From Bacteroidales bacterium UBA3684 (GTDB lineage: Bacteria; Bacteroidota; Bacteroidia; Bacteroidales; P3): a stretch of DNA of 21,257 bases. Of the stretch, positions 7,195 through 21,143 are shown piece after piece. The notes under the pieces were generated by a model. The model was not told the DNA's origin and did not search any database. It saw only the letters and a program-made list of their open reading frames with translations. Within the stretch, counting starts at the first letter, position 1; every line of letters starts with the position of its first letter. Made by a program: the position numbers and the translations under genes. The stretch lies in assembly GCA_002372855.1 (NCBI GenBank), contig DFIZ01000056.1, forward strand, positions 422 to 21,678. The letters are read 5' to 3'.

Positions 7195-7202
7195 TATCTT
7201 TG
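7195..7202 (+). promoter_or_regulatory. -7 promoter element of the sufC operon
   Basis: TATCTTTG matches TAnnTTTG exactly. The predicted leader is about 58 bases before the sufC ATG. No good TTTG is found 19-21 bases upstream, so the -33 half is weak, which would be compatible with an activator. Confidence 0.6.
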
Positions 7203-7265
7203 CTGGTTGAACAGGATTGTTCAGTTTGTAATATATATAAAATAATCAGACATTTAACTTACGAT

Positions 7266-8024
7266 ATGGCATTACTATCTATACGCAATTTGCACGCCTC
7301 GATTGGCGAGCGGGAGATTTTGAAGGGGGTGAACCTCGAAATCAACGCGGGCGAGGTACATTCCATCATGGGACCCAACGGCAACGGCAAGAGCACCCTG
7401 GCCGGAGTGATAGCCGGCAACAGCAAGTATACCGTCACTGAAGGCGAGGTAATCTACAAGGGGAAGAACATCCTTGACATGCCGGTGGATGTGCGCGCCT
7501 GCGAGGGCATTTTTCTCGGCTTCCAGTATCCTGTGGAGATTCCGGGGGTGAGCATCACCAACTTTATGCGCACGGCTGTGAACGAGCAGCGCAAATACCG
7601 CGGGCTGGACCCCCTCTCCGGCTCGGAATTCCTGAAGCTGATGGAGGAGAAGAAGAAGGTGGTGGAGATGACCACCAACCTGGCCAACCGCTCGGTGAAC
7701 GAGGGTTTCAGCGGCGGCGAGAAGAAGAAGAACGAGATTTTCCAGATGGCCATGCTCAACCCGACGCTGAGCATACTGGACGAGACCGATTCGGGCCTCG
7801 ACATCGACGCGCTGCGCATCGTGGCCGGCGGCGTCAACCAGCTGCGCTCGAAGGACAACGCCATCATCGTCATCACGCACTACCAGCGCCTGCTGGACTT
7901 CATCGTGCCCGACTTTGTGCATGTGCTCTACGAGGGCCGCATTGTCAAGACCGGCCCCAAGGAGCTGGCCCTGGAGCTGGAGGAGCGCGGCTACGACTGG
8001 ATCAAGAAGGAACTGGGAGAGTGA
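7266..8024 (+). CDS. sufC: SufC, Fe-S cluster assembly ATPase
   Basis: Encodes 252 residues, the normal SufC length. Seen: Walker A GPNGNGKST (about residues 35-43), signature FSGGEKKKNEI (where classical ABC proteins have LSGGQ), Walker B SILDETDSGLDIDAL and the H-loop VITHYQRLL. The FSGGEKKKNE and DETDSGLD forms are characteristic of SufC. SufC powers the SufBCD scaffold complex that builds Fe-S clusters in the cytoplasm. Start: an in-frame TTG at 7200 lies inside the -7 element, so ATG 7266 is chosen. The gene opens an operon with sufD, but sufB, usually adjacent, is missing here. A heptamer repeat array fills the 56-base gap to sufD. Confidence 0.97.
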   Translation: MALLSIRNLHASIGEREILKGVNLEINAGEVHSIMGPNGNGKSTLAGVIAGNSKYTVTEGEVIYKGKNILDMPVDVRACEGIFLGFQYPVEIPGVSITNFMRTAVNEQRKYRGLDPLSGSEFLKLMEEKKKVVEMTTNLANRSVNEGFSGGEKKKNEIFQMAMLNPTLSILDETDSGLDIDALRIVAGGVNQLRSKDNAIIVITHYQRLLDFIVPDFVHVLYEGRIVKTGPKELALELEERGYDWIKKELGE

Positions 8025-8029
8025 TATTC

Positions 8030-8080
8030 AGTGTTAAGTGTTCAGTGTTTAGTGTTTAGTTCTGTGTTCAGTGTTAAGTT
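8030..8080 (+). repeat. AGTGTTN heptamer array between sufC and sufD
   Basis: The array reads as four in-phase heptamers (AGTGTTA, AGTGTTC, AGTGTTT, AGTGTTT; 8030-8057), then AGTTC (8058-8062), then TGTGTTC and AGTGTTA (8063-8076), then AGTT directly before the sufD ATG. The last base of the unit varies. The same layout of four units followed by AGTT plus C or G brackets the four-helix-bundle gene at 18826-19244. Confidence 0.9.
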
Positions 8081-9007
8081 ATGATTAGAAAAGACCAACT
8101 TCCCGATATATGGGGCGACAGCTGGCGGCTGTCGTCCGAGGCCGACCCGCAACGGCTGCCCGTGCCGCGCGGTACGGAGGTGCGCGTGGTGGTGACGGAC
8201 AATCCCTGGCTCGTGGAGCAGATGGAGGGTCAGGCCCTCTGCTGCCCGCCGTCGGAGCTGCTGGAAATCGACATCGAAGAGGGGGCCAGCCTCGAGCTCT
8301 ACCGCCTGCAGGACTTCCACACCCCGCCGCAGGCTTTCACCGAGACCCGCATCACCCTCCGCCGCGACGCACGCCTGCGCATGTGCACCGTCACCCTCGG
8401 TGGCGGCCATGTGAGGAACAACGTCATTGTCCGCATGCAGGGCGAGGGGTGCGAGCTGACGGCCGACGGCCTCTACCTCATGGACCGCGAACAGCAGTGC
8501 GACAACTATATCTTCGTCGAGCATGCCAAGCCCCACTGCACGAGCCATACGCTCTACAAGGGCATTATCGACGATGCCGCCCGTGCGCGCTTCAACGGCC
8601 ACGTGCTGGTGCAGGACGGCGCCGTGAAGACCGAGGCCTGCCAGACCAACCGCAATATCCTCCTCACCGACAAGGCCCACGTCGACACGCGTCCCTTCCT
8701 GGAGATATACAACGACGATGTGAAATGCTCCCACGGCTCGACCATCGGCCAGCTGGACGAGCAGGCCCTCTTCTACCTGCAGACCCGCGGCATCAGCGAG
8801 CGCACGGCCATGACCATGCTCAGCTATGCTTTCTGCGACGAGGTGATTCGCGGCATCGGCATCGAGCGTCTGCGCGACACCGTGGGCGACATGGTGAAGA
8901 AGCGCCTCCACGGCGAGCTGACCTCCTGCGCCGACTGCGCCATTGCCTGCAAGAACCCCTGCAACGGCCCCGACGCACATTTCGACATTGATCCAAGCAA
9001 ACTGTAA
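8081..9007 (+). CDS. sufD: SufD-type Fe-S assembly scaffold protein (N-terminally short)
   Basis: Encodes 308 residues, clearly shorter than usual SufD (about 420-450). The beta-helix core of the SufB/SufD family is present: TLGGGHVRNN, ARFNGHVLVQDGAVKTEACQ, NRNILLTDKAHVDTRP, LEIYNDDVKCSHGST, then the C-terminal helical part IGQLDEQALFYLQTRGI. The N-terminal helical domain and the E-x-W-x-Y-T-x-like segment of typical SufD are missing, and the gene starts directly at the end of the heptamer array. The C-terminus carries four closely spaced cysteines (C-x2-C-x3-C-x3-C, about residues 283-293). SufD joins SufB and SufC in the scaffold complex. The next gene starts 4 bases after the stop. Confidence 0.93.
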   Translation: MIRKDQLPDIWGDSWRLSSEADPQRLPVPRGTEVRVVVTDNPWLVEQMEGQALCCPPSELLEIDIEEGASLELYRLQDFHTPPQAFTETRITLRRDARLRMCTVTLGGGHVRNNVIVRMQGEGCELTADGLYLMDREQQCDNYIFVEHAKPHCTSHTLYKGIIDDAARARFNGHVLVQDGAVKTEACQTNRNILLTDKAHVDTRPFLEIYNDDVKCSHGSTIGQLDEQALFYLQTRGISERTAMTMLSYAFCDEVIRGIGIERLRDTVGDMVKKRLHGELTSCADCAIACKNPCNGPDAHFDIDPSKL

Positions 9008-9011
9008 TGGA

Positions 9012-10880
9012 GTGAAACGAAGTGAAAAAGGAGTGAAAGGGAGTGAAAGGACAATACCGCAGCCTCGCACATTTGTCCTCTCTCTCCCTTTCGCTTCTTT
9101 TCGGACCCTCTCCCTTTTTGTAATCTTCCTGCTGCTCTCCGCTCTCCACTCTCCGTTCTCCACTCTCCAGGCCCAGTGCGGCGTCAAGGTGAAGAGCGGC
9201 GACGAGGACGCCATGCGCAGTGCCCTGGCCGAGATGGAACAGGGACACCTGCGCGAGGCTTCGCAGCAGATGCGCCGCGTGGCCCAGCGCAACCCCAAGG
9301 CTGCCGAGCCGCAGTTCTGGCTGGGGATGCTGGCGGTGCGCAACGGGTTCAACGCCACGGGTATCCGCAAGTACTTCACCAAGTGTATCGACCTCTGTCC
9401 GAACTATCCCAATGCCCTGGCGCACTACTACATGGGCATGATCTACTACACCGACGAGCGCTACGAGGAGGCCACGGCCGAGCTGGAGACCTACTTCCGC
9501 ATGGCCAACAACTGCGACGACAAGGCGCAGACGACTGTCTACGAGGAGGCGTCGGCCTACCTCCATTGGTCGCGGTTCCTGGGCGAGGCGGTGCTGAACA
9601 TGGCTCCGTTCGACCCCGAGCCGCTGCGAGGCGTCAGCACCAAGCGCAACGAGAATCTGCCCTTCATCACGCCCGACGGCCAGCGGTGCTACTACCTGCG
9701 CGAGATGCCGAAGAAGAAGGGCCCCACGTCGTTCACCGTGGACGACCTCGAGCAGCCGCGCTGGACCCTCTTCTGCAGCGAGTGGAAGGACAGCGCTTTC
9801 AGCGCCGGGCGCGAATTGCCGGCCCCCTTCAACCAAGGGAGTTCCGAGGGCGGGGTCAGCACGACGGCCGACGGCGACGTGCTCTATTTCTCGCGCATCA
9901 CCTACACCGGCGGATATGCCAACTGCGACCTGTATGTGGGCGAGTGGAAAACGCAGAGCGGGAAGTGGGAAGTGGAACGGTTGGGCAACAACATCAACGG
10001 CGACCGTACCTGGGAGTCGCAGCCCTCGGTGAGCGCCGACGGGCAGTGGCTCTACTATGCCTCCAACCGCAAGGGCGGTCAGGGCGGCACCGACATCTGG
10101 CGCTGCCACCGGCTGAAGAACGGCGACTGGAGCCGTCCCGAGAACCTCGGCAGCCGCGTCAACACCGCAGGCAACGAGAAATTCCCCTTCATCCATGCCG
10201 ACGGCCACACGCTCTATTTCGTCTCCGACGGCTGGCAGGGCTTCGGCGGATACGACGTCTATTTCATCGACCTTGCCGACGGCGATGCCCAGCCCACCAA
10301 CTTGGGCCTGCCCATCAACACCGAGGACGACGAGCTCTCCTTCGGCGTCACCGCCGACGGCACGCGGGCCTACTTCCCCGGAAGGGTCAAGTCGTCGCGC
10401 AGCAAGGACATCCTGGTCTTCGACCTCTATCCCGCCGCGCGGCCCGAGCCCATGCGCTGCTGCCACGTGCAGGTCGAATACTCCGGCCGGGAAAAGAGCG
10501 TCCGCAAGACCCTCATGCTCTCCAACCGCCGTGCCACGGCCCTCACCTTCGCCGAGGAGGGGCTGATGCCGGTCATCCTCTGCGCCACGGGCAAGACCTG
10601 GCGCGAGGGTGCCACGGTCACCCTGCAAGACAGTACCTCGGCCCTCGACCTGAAGCTCCTGCCCGGCAGCCGCCTGTCCGAACACGACGAGCTGCTGCTC
10701 GACGCCTGGGCCGAATGGCTCATCGACCATCCGCAGGTGCACGTCGCCGTGGAATGCCCCACGATGCCCGAGGCCAAGGCTGTGTGCGACTACCTGCGCA
10801 ACAAGAAAAAACTGCGTGCCGAGCGTCTTGAATGCCGCGGCGGCACCCAATATGTCAAACGCCAAATACGCCTGCTATGA
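9012..10880 (+). CDS. Exported TPR / PD40 beta-propeller protein with degenerate OmpA-like C-terminus (PorE-like architecture)
   Basis: Encodes 622 residues from GTG 9012, 4 bases after the sufD stop; GTG 9033 is an alternative, and ATG 8943 would overlap sufD by 65 bases. A long Arg/Lys-rich N-region leads to a hydrophobic signal segment (LSLFVIFLLLSAL, cleavage probably near LQAQ). TPR-like helices follow (about residues 55-170: HLREASQQMRRVAQRNP, ALAHYYMGMIYYTDERYEEA). Four or five WD40-like PD40 blades come next (ITPDGQRCYYL, TTADGDVLYFSRI, VSADGQWLYYASNRKGGQGGT, IHADGHTLYFVSDGWQGFGG, VTADGTRAYFPGR). The C-terminal 75 residues resemble an OmpA peptidoglycan-binding domain by length and secondary-structure pattern but lack the GHTD-type motif. 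It resembles PorE-class envelope proteins; a type IX secretion link is only a possibility. The gene end overlaps the ABC exporter start (ATGA). Confidence 0.8.
   Translation: MKRSEKGVKGSERTIPQPRTFVLSLPFASFRTLSLFVIFLLLSALHSPFSTLQAQCGVKVKSGDEDAMRSALAEMEQGHLREASQQMRRVAQRNPKAAEPQFWLGMLAVRNGFNATGIRKYFTKCIDLCPNYPNALAHYYMGMIYYTDERYEEATAELETYFRMANNCDDKAQTTVYEEASAYLHWSRFLGEAVLNMAPFDPEPLRGVSTKRNENLPFITPDGQRCYYLREMPKKKGPTSFTVDDLEQPRWTLFCSEWKDSAFSAGRELPAPFNQGSSEGGVSTTADGDVLYFSRITYTGGYANCDLYVGEWKTQSGKWEVERLGNNINGDRTWESQPSVSADGQWLYYASNRKGGQGGTDIWRCHRLKNGDWSRPENLGSRVNTAGNEKFPFIHADGHTLYFVSDGWQGFGGYDVYFIDLADGDAQPTNLGLPINTEDDELSFGVTADGTRAYFPGRVKSSRSKDILVFDLYPAARPEPMRCCHVQVEYSGREKSVRKTLMLSNRRATALTFAEEGLMPVILCATGKTWREGATVTLQDSTSALDLKLLPGSRLSEHDELLLDAWAEWLIDHPQVHVAVECPTMPEAKAVCDYLRNKKKLRAERLECRGGTQYVKRQIRLL
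9026..9101 (+). repeat. Long imperfect hairpin over the start and signal-peptide coding region
   Basis: Bases 9026-9053 pair with 9074-9101: a 28-bp stem with two G-U pairs and two mismatches and a 20-base loop. The left arm is built of GTGAAA units at 9012, 9022, 9033 and 9043, spaced 10-11 bases. It lies in the 5' coding part of the TPR/PD40 gene. Confidence 0.75.
9135..9169 (+). repeat. CTCTCCN heptamer array inside the signal-peptide coding region
   Basis: Five consecutive heptamers: CTCTCCG, CTCTCCA, CTCTCCG, TTCTCCA, CTCTCCA. As in the AGTGTTN arrays, the seventh base is the variable one. In frame it encodes part of the signal peptide around SALHSPFSTLQ. Confidence 0.85.
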
Positions 10881-17739: not shown

Positions 17740-18822
17740 TTATTTGGGTGCTTTGTAGATGAGCCAGGCGGCGGCGACGCTGAAGATAATCTGCGGCAGG
17801 AGCACTGCCATGAAGGGCGAGAGGTTGCCGTTGGTGGCGAATACGGTGGTGATTTTCATGAAGACGATGAACGAGAAGGCAATGGTGATGCCTATGGCCA
17901 GGTGCACGCCGATGCCGCCGCGGCTCTTGCGGGCGGCAATGGCCACTCCGATGAGTGTCATGACGATGATGGCCAGGGGGTTGATCAGGCGCTGCCAGAG
18001 CTCGATTTTGGCCGTCTTGACGGTGCCCGTGCCGCGCATCTCCTCGCGGTGTATGTAGTCGATGAGGTCGGGCGTGTTCATGGTCTCCACTCGGGTCGAC
18101 AGGAGGTTGAGGTCGTCGGGCGTAATGTCCAGCTTGACGTTGGCTTTGCCCTGGAAGCTGAAGGTTTCGCGGTGCAGGCTGTCGATGGTGCGCAGGCTGT
18201 AGCCCGAGCAGCGCCACAGCCCTTCGGCGGTGTCGTAGGTGATGTTGTTGGCCGTTTCGCGGCGCAGCAGACGCCCCTCGGGGTCGAGCTCCTCGCGGCA
18301 GAACATGAAGGCCTGCAGCTTCTTGACGTCATAGCTCTCGGCGTAGACCTGCACCCCGGGCTTGGCCTGGAAGTGGAGGTTGGAGTAGTAGTTGGTGGCC
18401 TTGGACTTGACGTACTCCTCCTCGAAAGCTATCAGGCGCTGGTTGGAGGAGGGTATGACGAAGTTGCCCAGCACAAAAACGACTATGGCCACAATGGCCG
18501 CGCCGTAGACATAGGGCCGCAGCATGCGCCCGTAGCGCACTCCGGAACTCAGGATGGCGATAATCTCGCTGTTGCCGGCCATCTTCGACGTGAAGAAAAT
18601 GACCGATATGAAGATGAACAGCGGACTGTAGAGGTTGACAAATCCCGGGATAAAGTTGAGGTAGTAGATGGACACCACCTGCCACAGCGTGGCGTGGTGC
18701 TCGAGGAATTTGTCCAGCTTCTCGCTGACGTCGAAGGTGATGACTATGATGATAATAAGGGCAAGCGCCAGAAGAAAAGTCTTCAGGTACTTGCCCAATA
18801 TGTAGCGGTCCAGTCGTTTCAC
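17740..18822 (-). CDS. LptF/LptG-family permease (YjgP/YjgQ)
   Basis: Encodes 360 residues from a GTG start. Topology fits LptF/G: N-terminal membrane helices (MKRLDRYILGKYLKTFLLAL; FIPGFVNLYSPLFIFISVIFF; AAIVAIVVFVLGNFVIP), a periplasmic beta-jellyroll region (about residues 130-260), and C-terminal helices (INPLAIIVMTLIGVAIAA; IGITIAFSFIVFM; LLPQIIFSVAAAWLIY). The segment SKMAGNSEIIAILSSGVRYGRML matches the conserved coupling region. The family forms the inner-membrane part of the lipopolysaccharide export machine; LptG is somewhat more likely than LptF, but I cannot decide. The GTG at 18820-18822 sits 3 bases from the end of a heptamer array; sufE follows 19 bases downstream. Confidence 0.9.
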   Translation of the reverse strand: MKRLDRYILGKYLKTFLLALALIIIIVITFDVSEKLDKFLEHHATLWQVVSIYYLNFIPGFVNLYSPLFIFISVIFFTSKMAGNSEIIAILSSGVRYGRMLRPYVYGAAIVAIVVFVLGNFVIPSSNQRLIAFEEEYVKSKATNYYSNLHFQAKPGVQVYAESYDVKKLQAFMFCREELDPEGRLLRRETANNITYDTAEGLWRCSGYSLRTIDSLHRETFSFQGKANVKLDITPDDLNLLSTRVETMNTPDLIDYIHREEMRGTGTVKTAKIELWQRLINPLAIIVMTLIGVAIAARKSRGGIGVHLAIGITIAFSFIVFMKITTVFATNGNLSPFMAVLLPQIIFSVAAAWLIYKAPK

Positions 18823-18825
18823 TTC

Positions 18826-18858
18826 AGTGTTAAGTGTTTAGTTTTTAGTGTTAAGTTC
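18826..18858 (+). repeat. Left AGTGTTN heptamer array (inverted partner of 19210-19244)
   Basis: Plus strand: AGTGTTA, AGTGTTT, AGTTTTT, AGTGTTA, then AGTTC. The four-helix-bundle gene stop (TAA, minus strand, 18840-18838) and its last six codons lie inside the array. Confidence 0.9.
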
Positions 18859-19209
18859 GGGCTGGCGCGGCGAAGTCTTTTTGGTCGTTGAAACCAGCAT
18901 TTTCACCAGTTCTTTACAATCGGAGACAAGTTTGTCGGCCGATGAGTTGTCCAGGTACTCTGACATTGAAAGCAACTTCAGCCAATATAGAGTCTCGTTG
19001 GCTTCTTTAAGTGCTATATACATCTTCGAGGAGAAATCGGCCATGCTTTGCGCCATATTGGCTTCCGCTATGTTTGCACCGATGCTGGTGCCGCATCGCA
19101 GAAGTTGTTTGGACATTACATATTCTCCTTTCTCGCGTAGATTTTTATATGATGACACTATATTAAGCGCGAACTCGAAACTCTTTTCTTTCAGAATGCT
19201 TTCGCCCAT
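18838..19209 (-). CDS. Four-helix-bundle protein (23S rRNA IVP / Avd-like family)
   Basis: Encodes 123 residues. Diagnostic pattern: SFEFALNIV, then EKGEYVMSKQLLRCGTSIGANIAEA, AQSMADFSSKMYIALKEANET and YWLKLL, i.e. the compact four-helix bundle related to proteins encoded in 23S rRNA intervening sequences and to the Avd accessory protein of diversity-generating retroelements. Members are basic and thought to bind nucleic acid; their role as stand-alone genes is unclear. No reverse transcriptase or variable repeat is in the window. The ATG directly follows one heptamer array, and the last codons (ELNTKN) and stop lie within the inverted partner array. Codons are more AT-rich than in the flanking genes, fitting acquisition. 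It sits between mutA (33 bases) and the Lpt-type permease (15 bases). Confidence 0.92.
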   Translation of the reverse strand: MGESILKEKSFEFALNIVSSYKNLREKGEYVMSKQLLRCGTSIGANIAEANMAQSMADFSSKMYIALKEANETLYWLKLLSMSEYLDNSSADKLVSDCKELVKMLVSTTKKTSPRQPELNTKN

Positions 19210-19244
19210 GTCAACTAAACACTAAACACTTACCACTAAACACT
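19210..19244 (-). repeat. Right AGTGTTN heptamer array (inverted partner of 18826-18858)
   Basis: Minus strand, from 19244 down: AGTGTTT, AGTGGTA, AGTGTTT, AGTGTTT, then AGTTGAC immediately before the four-helix-bundle ATG. The mutA stop codon TAG (19245-19243) shares its AG with the first heptamer. Confidence 0.9.
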
Positions 19245-21099
19245 ACAAAAGTTCTTTTTGGAACTTTTGCAAGCATTCTAGGATGTTGGTTTTCACGTGG
19301 ATGAACTCGTCGATGCCGTAGCCTTTGTAGGTGTCGACCATCTCCTTGGGGAAGCCTGCGAGGACGAGGCTCTTCACCTTGCCCTTGAGGGCGTCGCACA
19401 CGGGCTTGGTGAGCTCGGCGTACTCGTCGTCGCTCGAGCAGAGCACCACGATGTCGGCCTTGCTCTCCAGGGCGGCCTTGGCGCCTTCCTCGGGGGTGGC
19501 GAAGCCGGGATTGTCGATAATCTCGTAGCCGGCGACACCGAAGAAGTTCGTGGCGAAACCGGCACGGGCTTTGCGCATGGCGAGGTTGCCGTAGGTCAGC
19601 AGGAACACCTTCGGGCGTTTGCCACTCTTCTCGGTGGCCAGACGCAGGGCCTCGATGGGCTCGGCGCCGCGGTAGGGCTTGAGGGTGCGCACCTCGCTGC
19701 CCTGCTCGCAATGGCAGCAGCAGTGGCCTTCGTGCTGTATCTTGTCGCCCATCTTCTCCAGCAGGTTGGGATACTGGTTGGTGCCGAGGATGGTGGTCTT
19801 GCGGGTGGCGATGTTGAGGTCGCGCTGCCGGGCGGTCTTCTCCACCTCGTCCTGCACGTAGCCCTGGCGGATGGCCTTGCAGAAGCCGCCGAGCTCTTCC
19901 ACCTTCAGGAAGTGCTCCCAGGCGCCGCGGGCAATCTGGTCGGTGAGGTTCTCGATATAGTAGCTGCCGGCGGCGGGGTCGGCAATCTTGTCCATGTAGC
20001 TCTCCTCCTTGAGCAGCAGCTGCTGGTTGCGGGCAATGCGGTAGCCGAAGTCGTCGGCCTCCTTGTAGGCGTTGTCGAAGGGCAGCACGGAGATGCTGTC
20101 GGCGCCGGCGATGGCGGCGGACATGGCCTCGGTGGTCGAGCGCAGCATGTTGACGTAGGGGTCGTAGACCGACTGGTTCCAGGCGCTGGTGGTGGCGTGG
20201 ACGTAGAGTTTGTAGGCGCAGTCGCACTCGGGCTTGTACTGCTCCACAATCTTGCTCCACAGCAGGCGCGCGGCGCGAATCTTGGCCATCTCCATGAAGT
20301 AGGTGCTGCCGATGCCGACGTTGAGGACGATGCTCGTGGCCACGTGCTCCAGCTTGCAGCCGAGGTCCGTCAGGCGGGCCACCATCTCGTTGGCGGCGGC
20401 CAGCGAGAAGCCGAGCTCCTGCACGATGTTCGAGCCGGCGTTGTGCAGCAGGCTGCCGTGGACGGTCAGCACGCGGAACTTGGGCAGCGCCTCGTGGGCG
20501 TACTCCACCAGTTGCTTGGCCATCTGGAAGTCCTCGGCCTCGCCGCGGTGGAACTTGCCGTGCTTCAGGGCATAGCGGAAGAGGTCGAACTCGCACGAGC
20601 CGCAGAGCTCCTTCGGGTCGAAGCCCTGCTTCTGGGCGTACTCGACGTAAAGCTTCAGGAGCTGGAGGTAGTCCTCGGAGCACATGAAGTTGATGCTCAC
20701 GGCGTTGATGTAGATGCCCTTGAGCAGGGTGGCCATGTCGTCGAGGCTGTGGATGCCCTTGGTGCAGAAGCCGATCGACGTGGCGCCGCGCTCCACGGCG
20801 TCGAGGGCCACGCGGTTGGCCTCCTTGGGGTCGGCGATGTGGATGTCCTGGCGCACGTCCCACACGTTGTTGTCCGTGTGTTTGCCGCGCGTGTAGGGCA
20901 TCTGGCCGGGGTTGCTGTCGAGGTATTCGAGACCTTCGAGGTCTTCGGCACGGTAGTAGGGTTTCACCTTGAAACCTTCGATGGTGTGCCACACGAGTTT
21001 CTTCTCGTAGTCGGCCCCTTTGAGGTCCTTGATGATGGCTTCCTCCCATTTCTCGGTCGGGACGGGCGGGAATTCGCTGAACAATTTGTTGTCTTCCAT
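19243..21099 (-). CDS. mutA: Methylmalonyl-CoA mutase small subunit
   Basis: Encodes 618 residues from ATG 21099 (MEDNKLFSEFPPVPTEKWE). The TIM-barrel part contains LEGLEYLDSNPGQMPYTRGKH, the GSCEFDLFRYALKHGK block, LGFSLAAANEMVARLTDLG and DPAAGSYYIENLTDQIA, all typical of the mutase. The C-terminal flavodoxin-like domain (about 480-618) lacks the cobalamin-ligating DxHxxG motif, as expected for the non-catalytic small subunit; the large subunit MutB carries B12. Together they interconvert succinyl-CoA and methylmalonyl-CoA in propionate formation. The in-frame ATG at 21138 lies in the promoter element and is rejected. mutB, usually directly downstream, is absent there; the four-helix-bundle gene and its repeats follow instead. 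Confidence 0.95.
   Translation of the reverse strand: MEDNKLFSEFPPVPTEKWEEAIIKDLKGADYEKKLVWHTIEGFKVKPYYRAEDLEGLEYLDSNPGQMPYTRGKHTDNNVWDVRQDIHIADPKEANRVALDAVERGATSIGFCTKGIHSLDDMATLLKGIYINAVSINFMCSEDYLQLLKLYVEYAQKQGFDPKELCGSCEFDLFRYALKHGKFHRGEAEDFQMAKQLVEYAHEALPKFRVLTVHGSLLHNAGSNIVQELGFSLAAANEMVARLTDLGCKLEHVATSIVLNVGIGSTYFMEMAKIRAARLLWSKIVEQYKPECDCAYKLYVHATTSAWNQSVYDPYVNMLRSTTEAMSAAIAGADSISVLPFDNAYKEADDFGYRIARNQQLLLKEESYMDKIADPAAGSYYIENLTDQIARGAWEHFLKVEELGGFCKAIRQGYVQDEVEKTARQRDLNIATRKTTILGTNQYPNLLEKMGDKIQHEGHCCCHCEQGSEVRTLKPYRGAEPIEALRLATEKSGKRPKVFLLTYGNLAMRKARAGFATNFFGVAGYEIIDNPGFATPEEGAKAALESKADIVVLCSSDDEYAELTKPVCDALKGKVKSLVLAGFPKEMVDTYKGYGIDEFIHVKTNILECLQKFQKELL
19246..19269. repeat. Palindrome across the 3' end of mutA
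   Basis: A perfect 9-bp inverted repeat CAAAAGTTC (19246-19254) / GAACTTTTG (19261-19269) with a 6-base spacer covers the last codons of mutA, immediately next to the right heptamer array. No T-run follows on minus. Confidence 0.7.
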
Positions 21100-21135
21100 T
21101 ATATTGTATCGTTTATTTGTTTCTATTGTAAAAGG

Positions 21136-21143
21136 CAAAGATA
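21136..21143 (-). promoter_or_regulatory. -7 promoter element of mutA
   Basis: Minus strand TATCTTTG matches TAnnTTTG. The predicted leader is about 30 bases before ATG 21099. It probably drives the whole leftward run down to the OppC-type gene, since no other promoter was found in the short gaps. Confidence 0.65.

Follow-up and report, generated by a model that had tools for sequence, protein, structure and literature searches.

The 123-codon gene that lies between mutA and an lptF/G-type gene in this stretch of Bacteroidales DNA, together with the two inverted tandem arrays around it, is best read as one copy of a widespread selfish repeat system, which would consist of a cassette and of gene-less arrays and be recognised by a pentameric four-helix protein; we put the probability of this reading at roughly 55%. 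The four-helix element between arrays is itself a real and recurrent unit, which some relatives have and others lack, and the observation is far more general than the initial annotation supposed. The window, that is the whole stretch of 21,257 nucleotides that was analysed, belongs to the 1.89 Mb genome of Bacteroidales bacterium UBA3684 (here G000), which is 79% complete.

The four-helix element in the window

The gene is located at 18838–19209 on the minus strand and encodes a 123-aa four-helix-bundle protein of the S23/IVP type (PF05635, 1e-28; TIGR02436, 2e-31), in the clade labelled GTSIGAN. The arm on its 3' side (18826–18857, plus strand) is made up of the units AGTGTTA, AGTGTTT, AGTTTTT and AGTGTTA followed by AGTT, carries AG on the inward strand and contains the gene's last codons and its stop. 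The arm on its 5' side (19213–19245, minus strand) reads AGTGTTT, AGTGGTA, AGTGTTT, AGTGTTT and AGTT, with 3 nt between it and the start codon. Compared over 32 nt each (18826–18857 and 19213–19244), the arms are 84% complementary and spaced 355 nt apart, and the inverted-repeat score of the locus is 39, compared with a maximum of 28 among 600 random windows. The bracketing of the gene by two inverted arrays, with its start abutting one of them and its last codons and stop inside the other, is as initially annotated. The description of each array as four AGTGTTN heptamers was right as to the number of heptamers and the AGTT that follows them, but two of the eight units (AGTTTTT and AGTGGTA) depart from the pattern.

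The whole unit (18823–19245) fills the space between the lptF/G-type gene (17740–18822, minus strand; LptF_LptG, 7e-71) and mutA, a methylmalonyl-CoA mutase-like gene (19243–21138, minus strand; MM_CoA_mutase, 6e-144), exactly, as had been claimed of these two flanks of the insertion site, and its outermost unit on the mutA side starts in mutA's own TAG stop codon (19243–19245). The sole gene between the arms is the one matching PF05635, and no linked Y1 transposase is found there. The element does not lie in 23S rRNA, the only Rfam match in the window at the gathering threshold being a tRNA, and PADLOC and PHROG searches with the four-helix protein gave no match to a known defence or phage family.

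That mutB does not follow mutA was seen correctly, but this is normal for the genus: mutA adjoins an lptF/G-type gene in all 30 loci inspected, the window's own included, and the missing neighbour is therefore not due to the element. A second methylmalonyl-CoA mutase-like gene, which is probably mutB, is found elsewhere in the same genome (G000:C42:9349-10892). It is ~30% identical to mutA over the matched pieces, and matches resembling it, in frames of ~720 aa, are also found in congeners.

Recurrence of the architecture within and between genomes

Nine PF05635 genes were found in G000, eight of which have inverted tandem arrays on both sides. The array unit varies from copy to copy between 7 and 11 nt, with 7-nt units of AGTGTTN (window), GAGTTAA, GAATTAG, AATTAAA and GTGGAGA, and longer units of 8 nt (GGCTGAGT), 9 nt (AAGTTAGAG) and 11 nt (GGGAGTGA-type). 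Among control ORFs of at least 100 aa from 321.5 kb of the same genome, 3 of 190 passed the same inverted-arm test, the top-scoring one, with an inverted-repeat score of 281, being probably an insertion sequence as judged by that score; none of 30 small ORFs passed. No arrays are present around the ninth PF05635 gene (L008; G000:C8:9975-10286), a 154-aa variant whose protein may be a domesticated form or belong to a different subfamily.

The architecture of a four-helix gene between inverted arrays is also widely distributed. PF05635 genes are present in 53 of 61 genomes (G000 and 60 relatives), with a maximum of 18 per genome, and a phylum-wide sample of 148 Bacteroidota genomes has them in 116. 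The initial annotation had proposed scanning related four-helix genes for flanking arrays, and such a scan found inverted arms at 98 of 110 loci, compared with 5 of 600 random windows at the same threshold; mismatched arm pairs reached it in 122 of 2167 cases. These 110 are the loci with usable flanks, mostly from Bacteroidales, together with seven named plasmids and one phage contig, leaving out L039 (equal to L003), L058 (equal to locus L033) and one of the two copies of L123, which has a flank of 34 nt. All seven plasmid loci passed (Nostoc, Bernardetia, Treponema, Dolichospermum, Anabaena, Chlorohelix and Planktothrix), these having been hand-picked from 25 plasmid records with a match, and the phage contig (L135), one of two phage records, did not reach the inverted-repeat threshold.

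In named genomes, inverted arms were found at 62 of 80 loci in 14 named phyla, with a period of 7 nearly throughout, the 80 being the best of 578 relatives in a scan with a five-sequence alignment; the sole cyanobacterial and the sole archaeal locus among these best 80 failed, each having a flank cut by a contig end. Viral contigs gave 10 of 15 loci, some of the 15 being near copies of one another, and a wider Bacteroidota set of the 30 best loci gave only 18, the arrays there being shorter and more degenerate.

Four-helix elements occur within defence and CRISPR loci on cyanobacterial plasmids. The element on the Anabaena cylindrica plasmid pANACY.01 (L133) lies between cas2 and cas1, and those on Planktothrix agardhii plasmids (L136, L260 and L261) lie between drmD, which one record annotates as a helicase, and a methylase-type gene downstream of it (pglX) in a DISARM-like operon.

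Presence and absence at insertion sites

At one and the same locus the element is present in some genomes and absent from others. Of 41 genomes of the genus, G000 included, 39 have a match to mutA, and mutA-lptF/G junctions were compared for empty sites, as had also been proposed initially. Four of 30 junctions carry a four-helix element (the window, L041, L051 and L058), and 12 have a gap of at most 11 nt or an overlap, five of these being close kin that share nearly one junction. Clear remnants are seen at two junctions, in the form of both arms with a scrap of the four-helix gene (L047) and of a lone array of the 10-nt type (L052), and the other 12 have spacers of 24 to 145 nt, among which L049 and L055 may hold array scraps.

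Identity among the four-helix proteins of the window element, L041 and L051 is 61–68%, and these three elements may represent one insertion followed by later losses. The protein of L058 (locus L033) is 24–26% identical to the other three and comes from another clade, which makes its insertion clearly a separate one, and the junction has thus been used by two elements at the least. A history of four independent insertions was considered and withdrawn on account of the identity among three of the four proteins and of the mutA-side arm of L041, which opens with window-like units although the dominant units differ among the elements at this junction.

A second element, L034 in genome G020 (742 nt including arrays), corresponds to a gap of 31 nt in G016, with flanks that are 91–93% identical. 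Near it, the site of a gene-less array is empty in G016, occupied by one array in G026, and occupied by the same array with an adjoining hairpin in G020. At the L034 junction itself, G026 instead has ~1.8 kb without evident arrays (L162/L158, G026:C18:249562-251396), which on visual inspection resembles a restriction-modification gene pair. Comparisons with flanks 84–95% identical revealed no clear target-site duplication, the closest filled and empty pair having ~93% DNA identity. No strain-level empty site was seen on plasmids, the three Planktothrix plasmids all carrying the element and differing mainly in array length, mostly by whole units, with the gene almost unchanged; a search in Nostoc gave no clean empty site.

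Repeat period and core in relation to the protein

The period and core of the arrays are specific to clades of the protein. Among the 98 loci with clear tandem arrays, which were picked by tandem score and are a different set from the 98 loci with inverted arms, the period was 7 in 63, 8 in 16, 9 in 6, 10 in 6, 6 in 4, 11 in 2 and 12 in 1. On the protein tree, the period changes 16 times, compared with a shuffled mean of 31.6 and minimum of 26 (1000 shuffles, 96 labelled rows), and a division into 7 and other periods changes nine times, compared with 27.5 and a minimum of 20. The tree has 107 rows and few columns, with 46 of 104 inner branches open, and leaves out L008 and short rows. Part of this signal may come from arms that are inherited together with the gene; the sequences of the units are diverse within clades of constant period.

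Cores were scored for clades hand-picked from the tree. The 51 seven-nt elements of the scanned clade have an AGNNNNN core of 4.02 bits, compared with a null mean of 2.90 and maximum of 3.09 (40 permutations; L214, a near copy of L213, left out), and when their units are aligned by rotation, two positions are near-fixed (A 0.86, G 0.95) and five are far freer. With 15 permutations for each remaining clade, the core is RTKNNNA in the window's clade (33 elements; 5.15, null maximum 4.49) and TTANNGK in another (11 elements; 6.84, null maximum 5.13), whilst elements with a period of 8, 9 or 10 (5, 4 and 6 elements) have AGTTAA with a spacer of variable length (7.74, 7.30 and 9.59, compared with 6.06, 6.53 and 8.01). 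AG appears again in the mixed remainder of 17 elements, barely above the null (3.92 compared with 3.70), the core of the 6-nt clade (3 elements) is marginal (3.86, null 3.82), and the 8-nt MNNIAEG clade (6 elements) has no core beyond the null (5.02 compared with 5.27).

The core is also confined largely to one strand. Runs of at least four AG at a pitch of 7 were found on the inward strand at 81 of 110 loci (80 named and 30 from the phylum), compared with 11 on the outward strand and 78 of 1000 control windows taken from the outer parts of named loci, in a test that ignores repeat identity. On the inward strand, 89 of 98 elements have more G than C and two have less. Perfect copying of the order of units between the two arms was considered and has only modest support, with an identity of 0.87 compared with 0.81 when shuffled and p ≤ 0.05 in 7 of 80 cases, where 4 are expected. 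Copying of the array unit from the neighbouring stop codon is suggestive by eye and is not claimed here.

Gene-less arrays and their relation to the gene

The initial annotation took the arrays for the ends of a small mobile element. They do bound a unit that is present or absent between relatives, but they are not exclusive to the gene-bearing unit, because gene-less arrays are common, with 94 in 321.5 kb of G000, a genome with nine four-helix genes, and three in the window. Two findings had been named as speaking against the claim; one of them, arrays being common near unrelated genes, was made, and the other, a lack of empty sites, was not. The three gene-less arrays of the window, all in gaps next to genes at 7200–8024 and 8081–9007, have units resembling those of three of the eight G000 elements. 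The first (8030–8079, plus strand) lies between these two genes and has the AGTGTTN unit of the window arms, the second (9026–9050, plus strand) has a 10-nt unit, GGGAGTGAAA, like the 11-nt arms of element L001, and the third (9134–9169, minus strand) has the unit GTGGAGA, like the arms of element L007.

Across the sampled part of G000, 43 of the 94 gene-less arrays match the arms of the genome's own eight elements, compared with a mean of 13.5 and maximum of 25 for eight foreign elements, taken from other species (50 draws). The same comparison gave 86 of 199 arrays in G002 (foreign mean 57.3, maximum 83; 12 of 18 elements used), which is barely above the foreign maximum, and 12 of 47 in G011 (foreign mean 3.2, maximum 13; 6 of 7 elements used), which is not above it.

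The number of four-helix genes in a genome is tied to the number of gene-less arrays. Across 12 congeneric genomes, with kinship ignored, those with more PF05635 genes have a higher density of period-7 arrays and of arrays of period 8–10 (rho 0.90 for each). Period-7 density ranges from 0 (G015, G028, G003 and G017) to 32.5 per 100 kb (G002); G017, with four four-helix genes, has no period-7 array in 137.9 kb. These densities come from first or large contig stretches, which are not random samples, gene counts are from incomplete genomes, and period 7 was singled out after its dominance was known. The sampled stretches contain two four-helix hits, with one array within 500 nt, and dropping that array leaves the correlation unchanged.

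When a lower threshold was applied to the G000 sample, 22 of 112 gene-less arrays had an inverted partner within 2 kb, mostly 4–60 nt away, the 11-mer hairpins among them probably belonging to another system. The density of 11-nt arrays has no relation to the number of four-helix genes (rho 0.07, 12 genomes), and these arrays were therefore set aside as another system; 11-nt arms are nonetheless found in two four-helix elements. Palindromic hairpins of 11-nt arrays are abundant, for instance as pairs of AATCGAAGAAC with a loop of a few nt (G028 L292-L300; G000 L143:10091-10186, L146 and L148), and are apparently another repeat family. Tandem heptamers at many genomic places, as found here, are a feature of the short tandemly repeated repetitive (STRR) heptanucleotide sequences, which are intergenic and occur at many places per genome.

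Proposed mechanism and alternative explanations

In the reading favoured here, the system would have two parts, the first being the cassette, an S23/IVP four-helix gene between two convergent tandem arrays, mostly of 7-nt units, and the second a more numerous collection of arrays and array hairpins that lack the gene, many of which share their units with resident cassettes. The four-helix protein most likely reads the arrays. Its two nearest solved relatives, 2gsc (XCC0516) and 2rld, each contain five chains, and a title cited in PMC10053308 speaks of XCC0516 in terms of five four-helix bundles. A ring that binds a single strand with one core per subunit would fit a short core that recurs a handful of times on one strand at fixed pitch. 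We infer that the protein binds the array in single-stranded form, either as RNA or as DNA in a hairpin, with one core such as AG for each subunit at a fixed pitch, and that the array, as the recognition end of the element, thereby allows the protein to act in trans on gene-less arrays.

The positions outside the core would turn over quickly by slippage, whilst copying between the arms would preserve their complementarity; template switching between inverted arms can keep arms alike. The weakest step is the route by which new copies would arise, perhaps from the hairpin form through host replication or repair or some enzyme acting in trans; we know of no catalytic domain in the four-helix protein. 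Insertions would persist in intergenic gaps, with the stem removed from transcripts or tolerated in them, as in 23S rRNA intervening sequences, and in the predicted RNA fold of the element the arms are paired (z −5.15).

A different use of the same binding would make the protein an autogenous RNA regulator, a ring like that of TRAP, which is an analogue for rings that bind RNA, with the 5' array as the operator through which it shuts off its own translation, the gene-less arrays beside other genes as further targets and any mobility incidental. The 5' arm in the window does stop 3 nt short of the start codon, AG recurs at fixed pitch upstream of the gene on its sense strand, and most TAACTGA arrays of one genome have been reported within several nt upstream of start codons, with a post-transcriptional regulator proposed (MacGregor, 2015; PMC4679880). 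This explanation is unlikely, though it has a real chance of being right; it leaves unexplained the mirror-image 3' arm, the gain or loss, at a single junction, of elements from two protein clades, and the hairpins of gene-less arrays.

It is rather improbable that the arrays are spread by some other process and serve only as recombination ports, with four-helix genes hopping between arrays of like units by homologous recombination or gene conversion and the protein having no role in the arrays. The gene-less arrays do far exceed the genes in number, and the Planktothrix arrays gain or lose whole units between strains whilst the gene is nearly constant. Period and core nevertheless track the protein tree across phyla, and period-7 arrays amount to 0, 0 and 2.5 per 100 kb in G015, G028 and G008, where only one or two four-helix genes are found and these match weakly.

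The logic of hairpins with a linked gene is also that of the REPIN-RAYT system (PMC3116915), in which case a Y1 transposase would move the array hairpins in trans and the four-helix gene would be cargo. Y1_Tnp matches are found in 8 of 12 genomes; G000 has three, all of them away from the window element. A Y1 transposase is not required, however, because G013 (97% complete) has seven four-helix genes and arrays of period 7 and 8–10 but no Y1_Tnp, and core and period would not be expected to track the four-helix protein, which makes this explanation very improbable. The initial annotation's suggestion that the element transposes via an RNA which a reverse transcriptase copies in trans, the protein having a role like that of the Avd of diversity-generating retroelements, which resembles PF05635 (PMC10053308), is hardly credible and is not needed, since RVT_1 is found in only 26 of 61 genomes and is absent from G002 (98% complete), which has 18 PF05635 genes, as well as from G000, though the latter is 79% complete.

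A broader and more tentative generalisation, which is less likely than not, is that S23/IVP proteins would define a novel class of mobile repeats: a pentameric ring without enzymatic activity would read a pitch code, that is a core of 2–3 nt every 6 to 12 nt as set by the protein clade, and would thereby both build and spread tandem arrays; the intergenic heptamer repeats, convergent pairs and 23S rRNA intervening sequences found across bacteria might then be products of one protein family. No cause has so far been established for the heptamer arrays of cyanobacteria, xanthomonads, Beggiatoaceae and Bacteroidetes, and the S23/IVP protein, familiar from 23S rRNA intervening sequences, has had no function assigned to it. 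Linking the two gives each a testable partner, with the protein clade as a predictor of array period and core and the gene number as a predictor of array load, and makes the four-helix protein a possible driver of much of the tandem-repeat content of these genomes.

Comparison with known systems

Heptamer arrays, including convergent pairs, have been described in Xanthomonas, Nostoc, Beggiatoaceae and some Bacteroidetes (PMC4692102, PMC4679880). The Xanthomonas GGGAATC, Nostoc GGGGA(C/T)T and TAACTGA repeats are similar to the window arrays in being mostly intergenic tandem heptamers, and 70 and 75 convergent inverted pairs were reported in two Xanthomonas genomes (PMC4692102). General RNA-binding proteins were proposed as partners of the TAACTGA arrays (PMC4679880), and the term "four helix" does not occur in the available text of either article. 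Two four-helix genes are listed in a table of phage regions in PMC5524665, the accessible part of which makes no mention of repeats at those genes, and no paper linking the four-helix family to arrays outside rRNA was found in open-licence PubMed Central, preprints excluded. The Avd protein is similar in that it is said to resemble PF05635 (PMC10053308), but it works with a reverse transcriptase and template and variable repeats, and neither G000 nor G002 has an RVT_1 match.

The nearest system in logic is REPIN-RAYT, in which a gene is likewise associated with inverted repeats, the genome also contains hairpins from the same family of repeats that lack the gene, and a genome has several such families, each located close to one gene (PMC3116915). 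The RAYT protein is a Y1 transposase, however, whereas here the protein is a four-helix bundle in which no catalytic site is known, and the arms consist of tandem arrays with variable units.

The 23S rRNA intervening sequences share with the window element an encoded PF05635/S23-type protein and terminal inverted repeats which are predicted to be able to pair in RNA. That of Coxiella burnetii is 428 nt long, with one S23p ORF and terminal inverted repeats that form a 28-bp stem, and has two to three tandem copies of GACAGAT, depending on the strain, together with GACAGAA just before the start codon (PMC4990558). It differs from the window element in lying inside 23S rRNA, at one locus, and in being excised by RNase III, the window element lying between mutA and lptF/G, and its heptamers are described in the available text on the 5' side only, without other genomic sites or gene-less copies. 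Intervening sequences were proposed long ago to be mobile or to be remnants of transposition, as cited in the same article (PMC4990558), and GACAGAT, when rotated, has AG at a pitch of 7 as do the arrays described here; the Coxiella intervening sequence appears to be one member of the four-helix array system in an unusual place.
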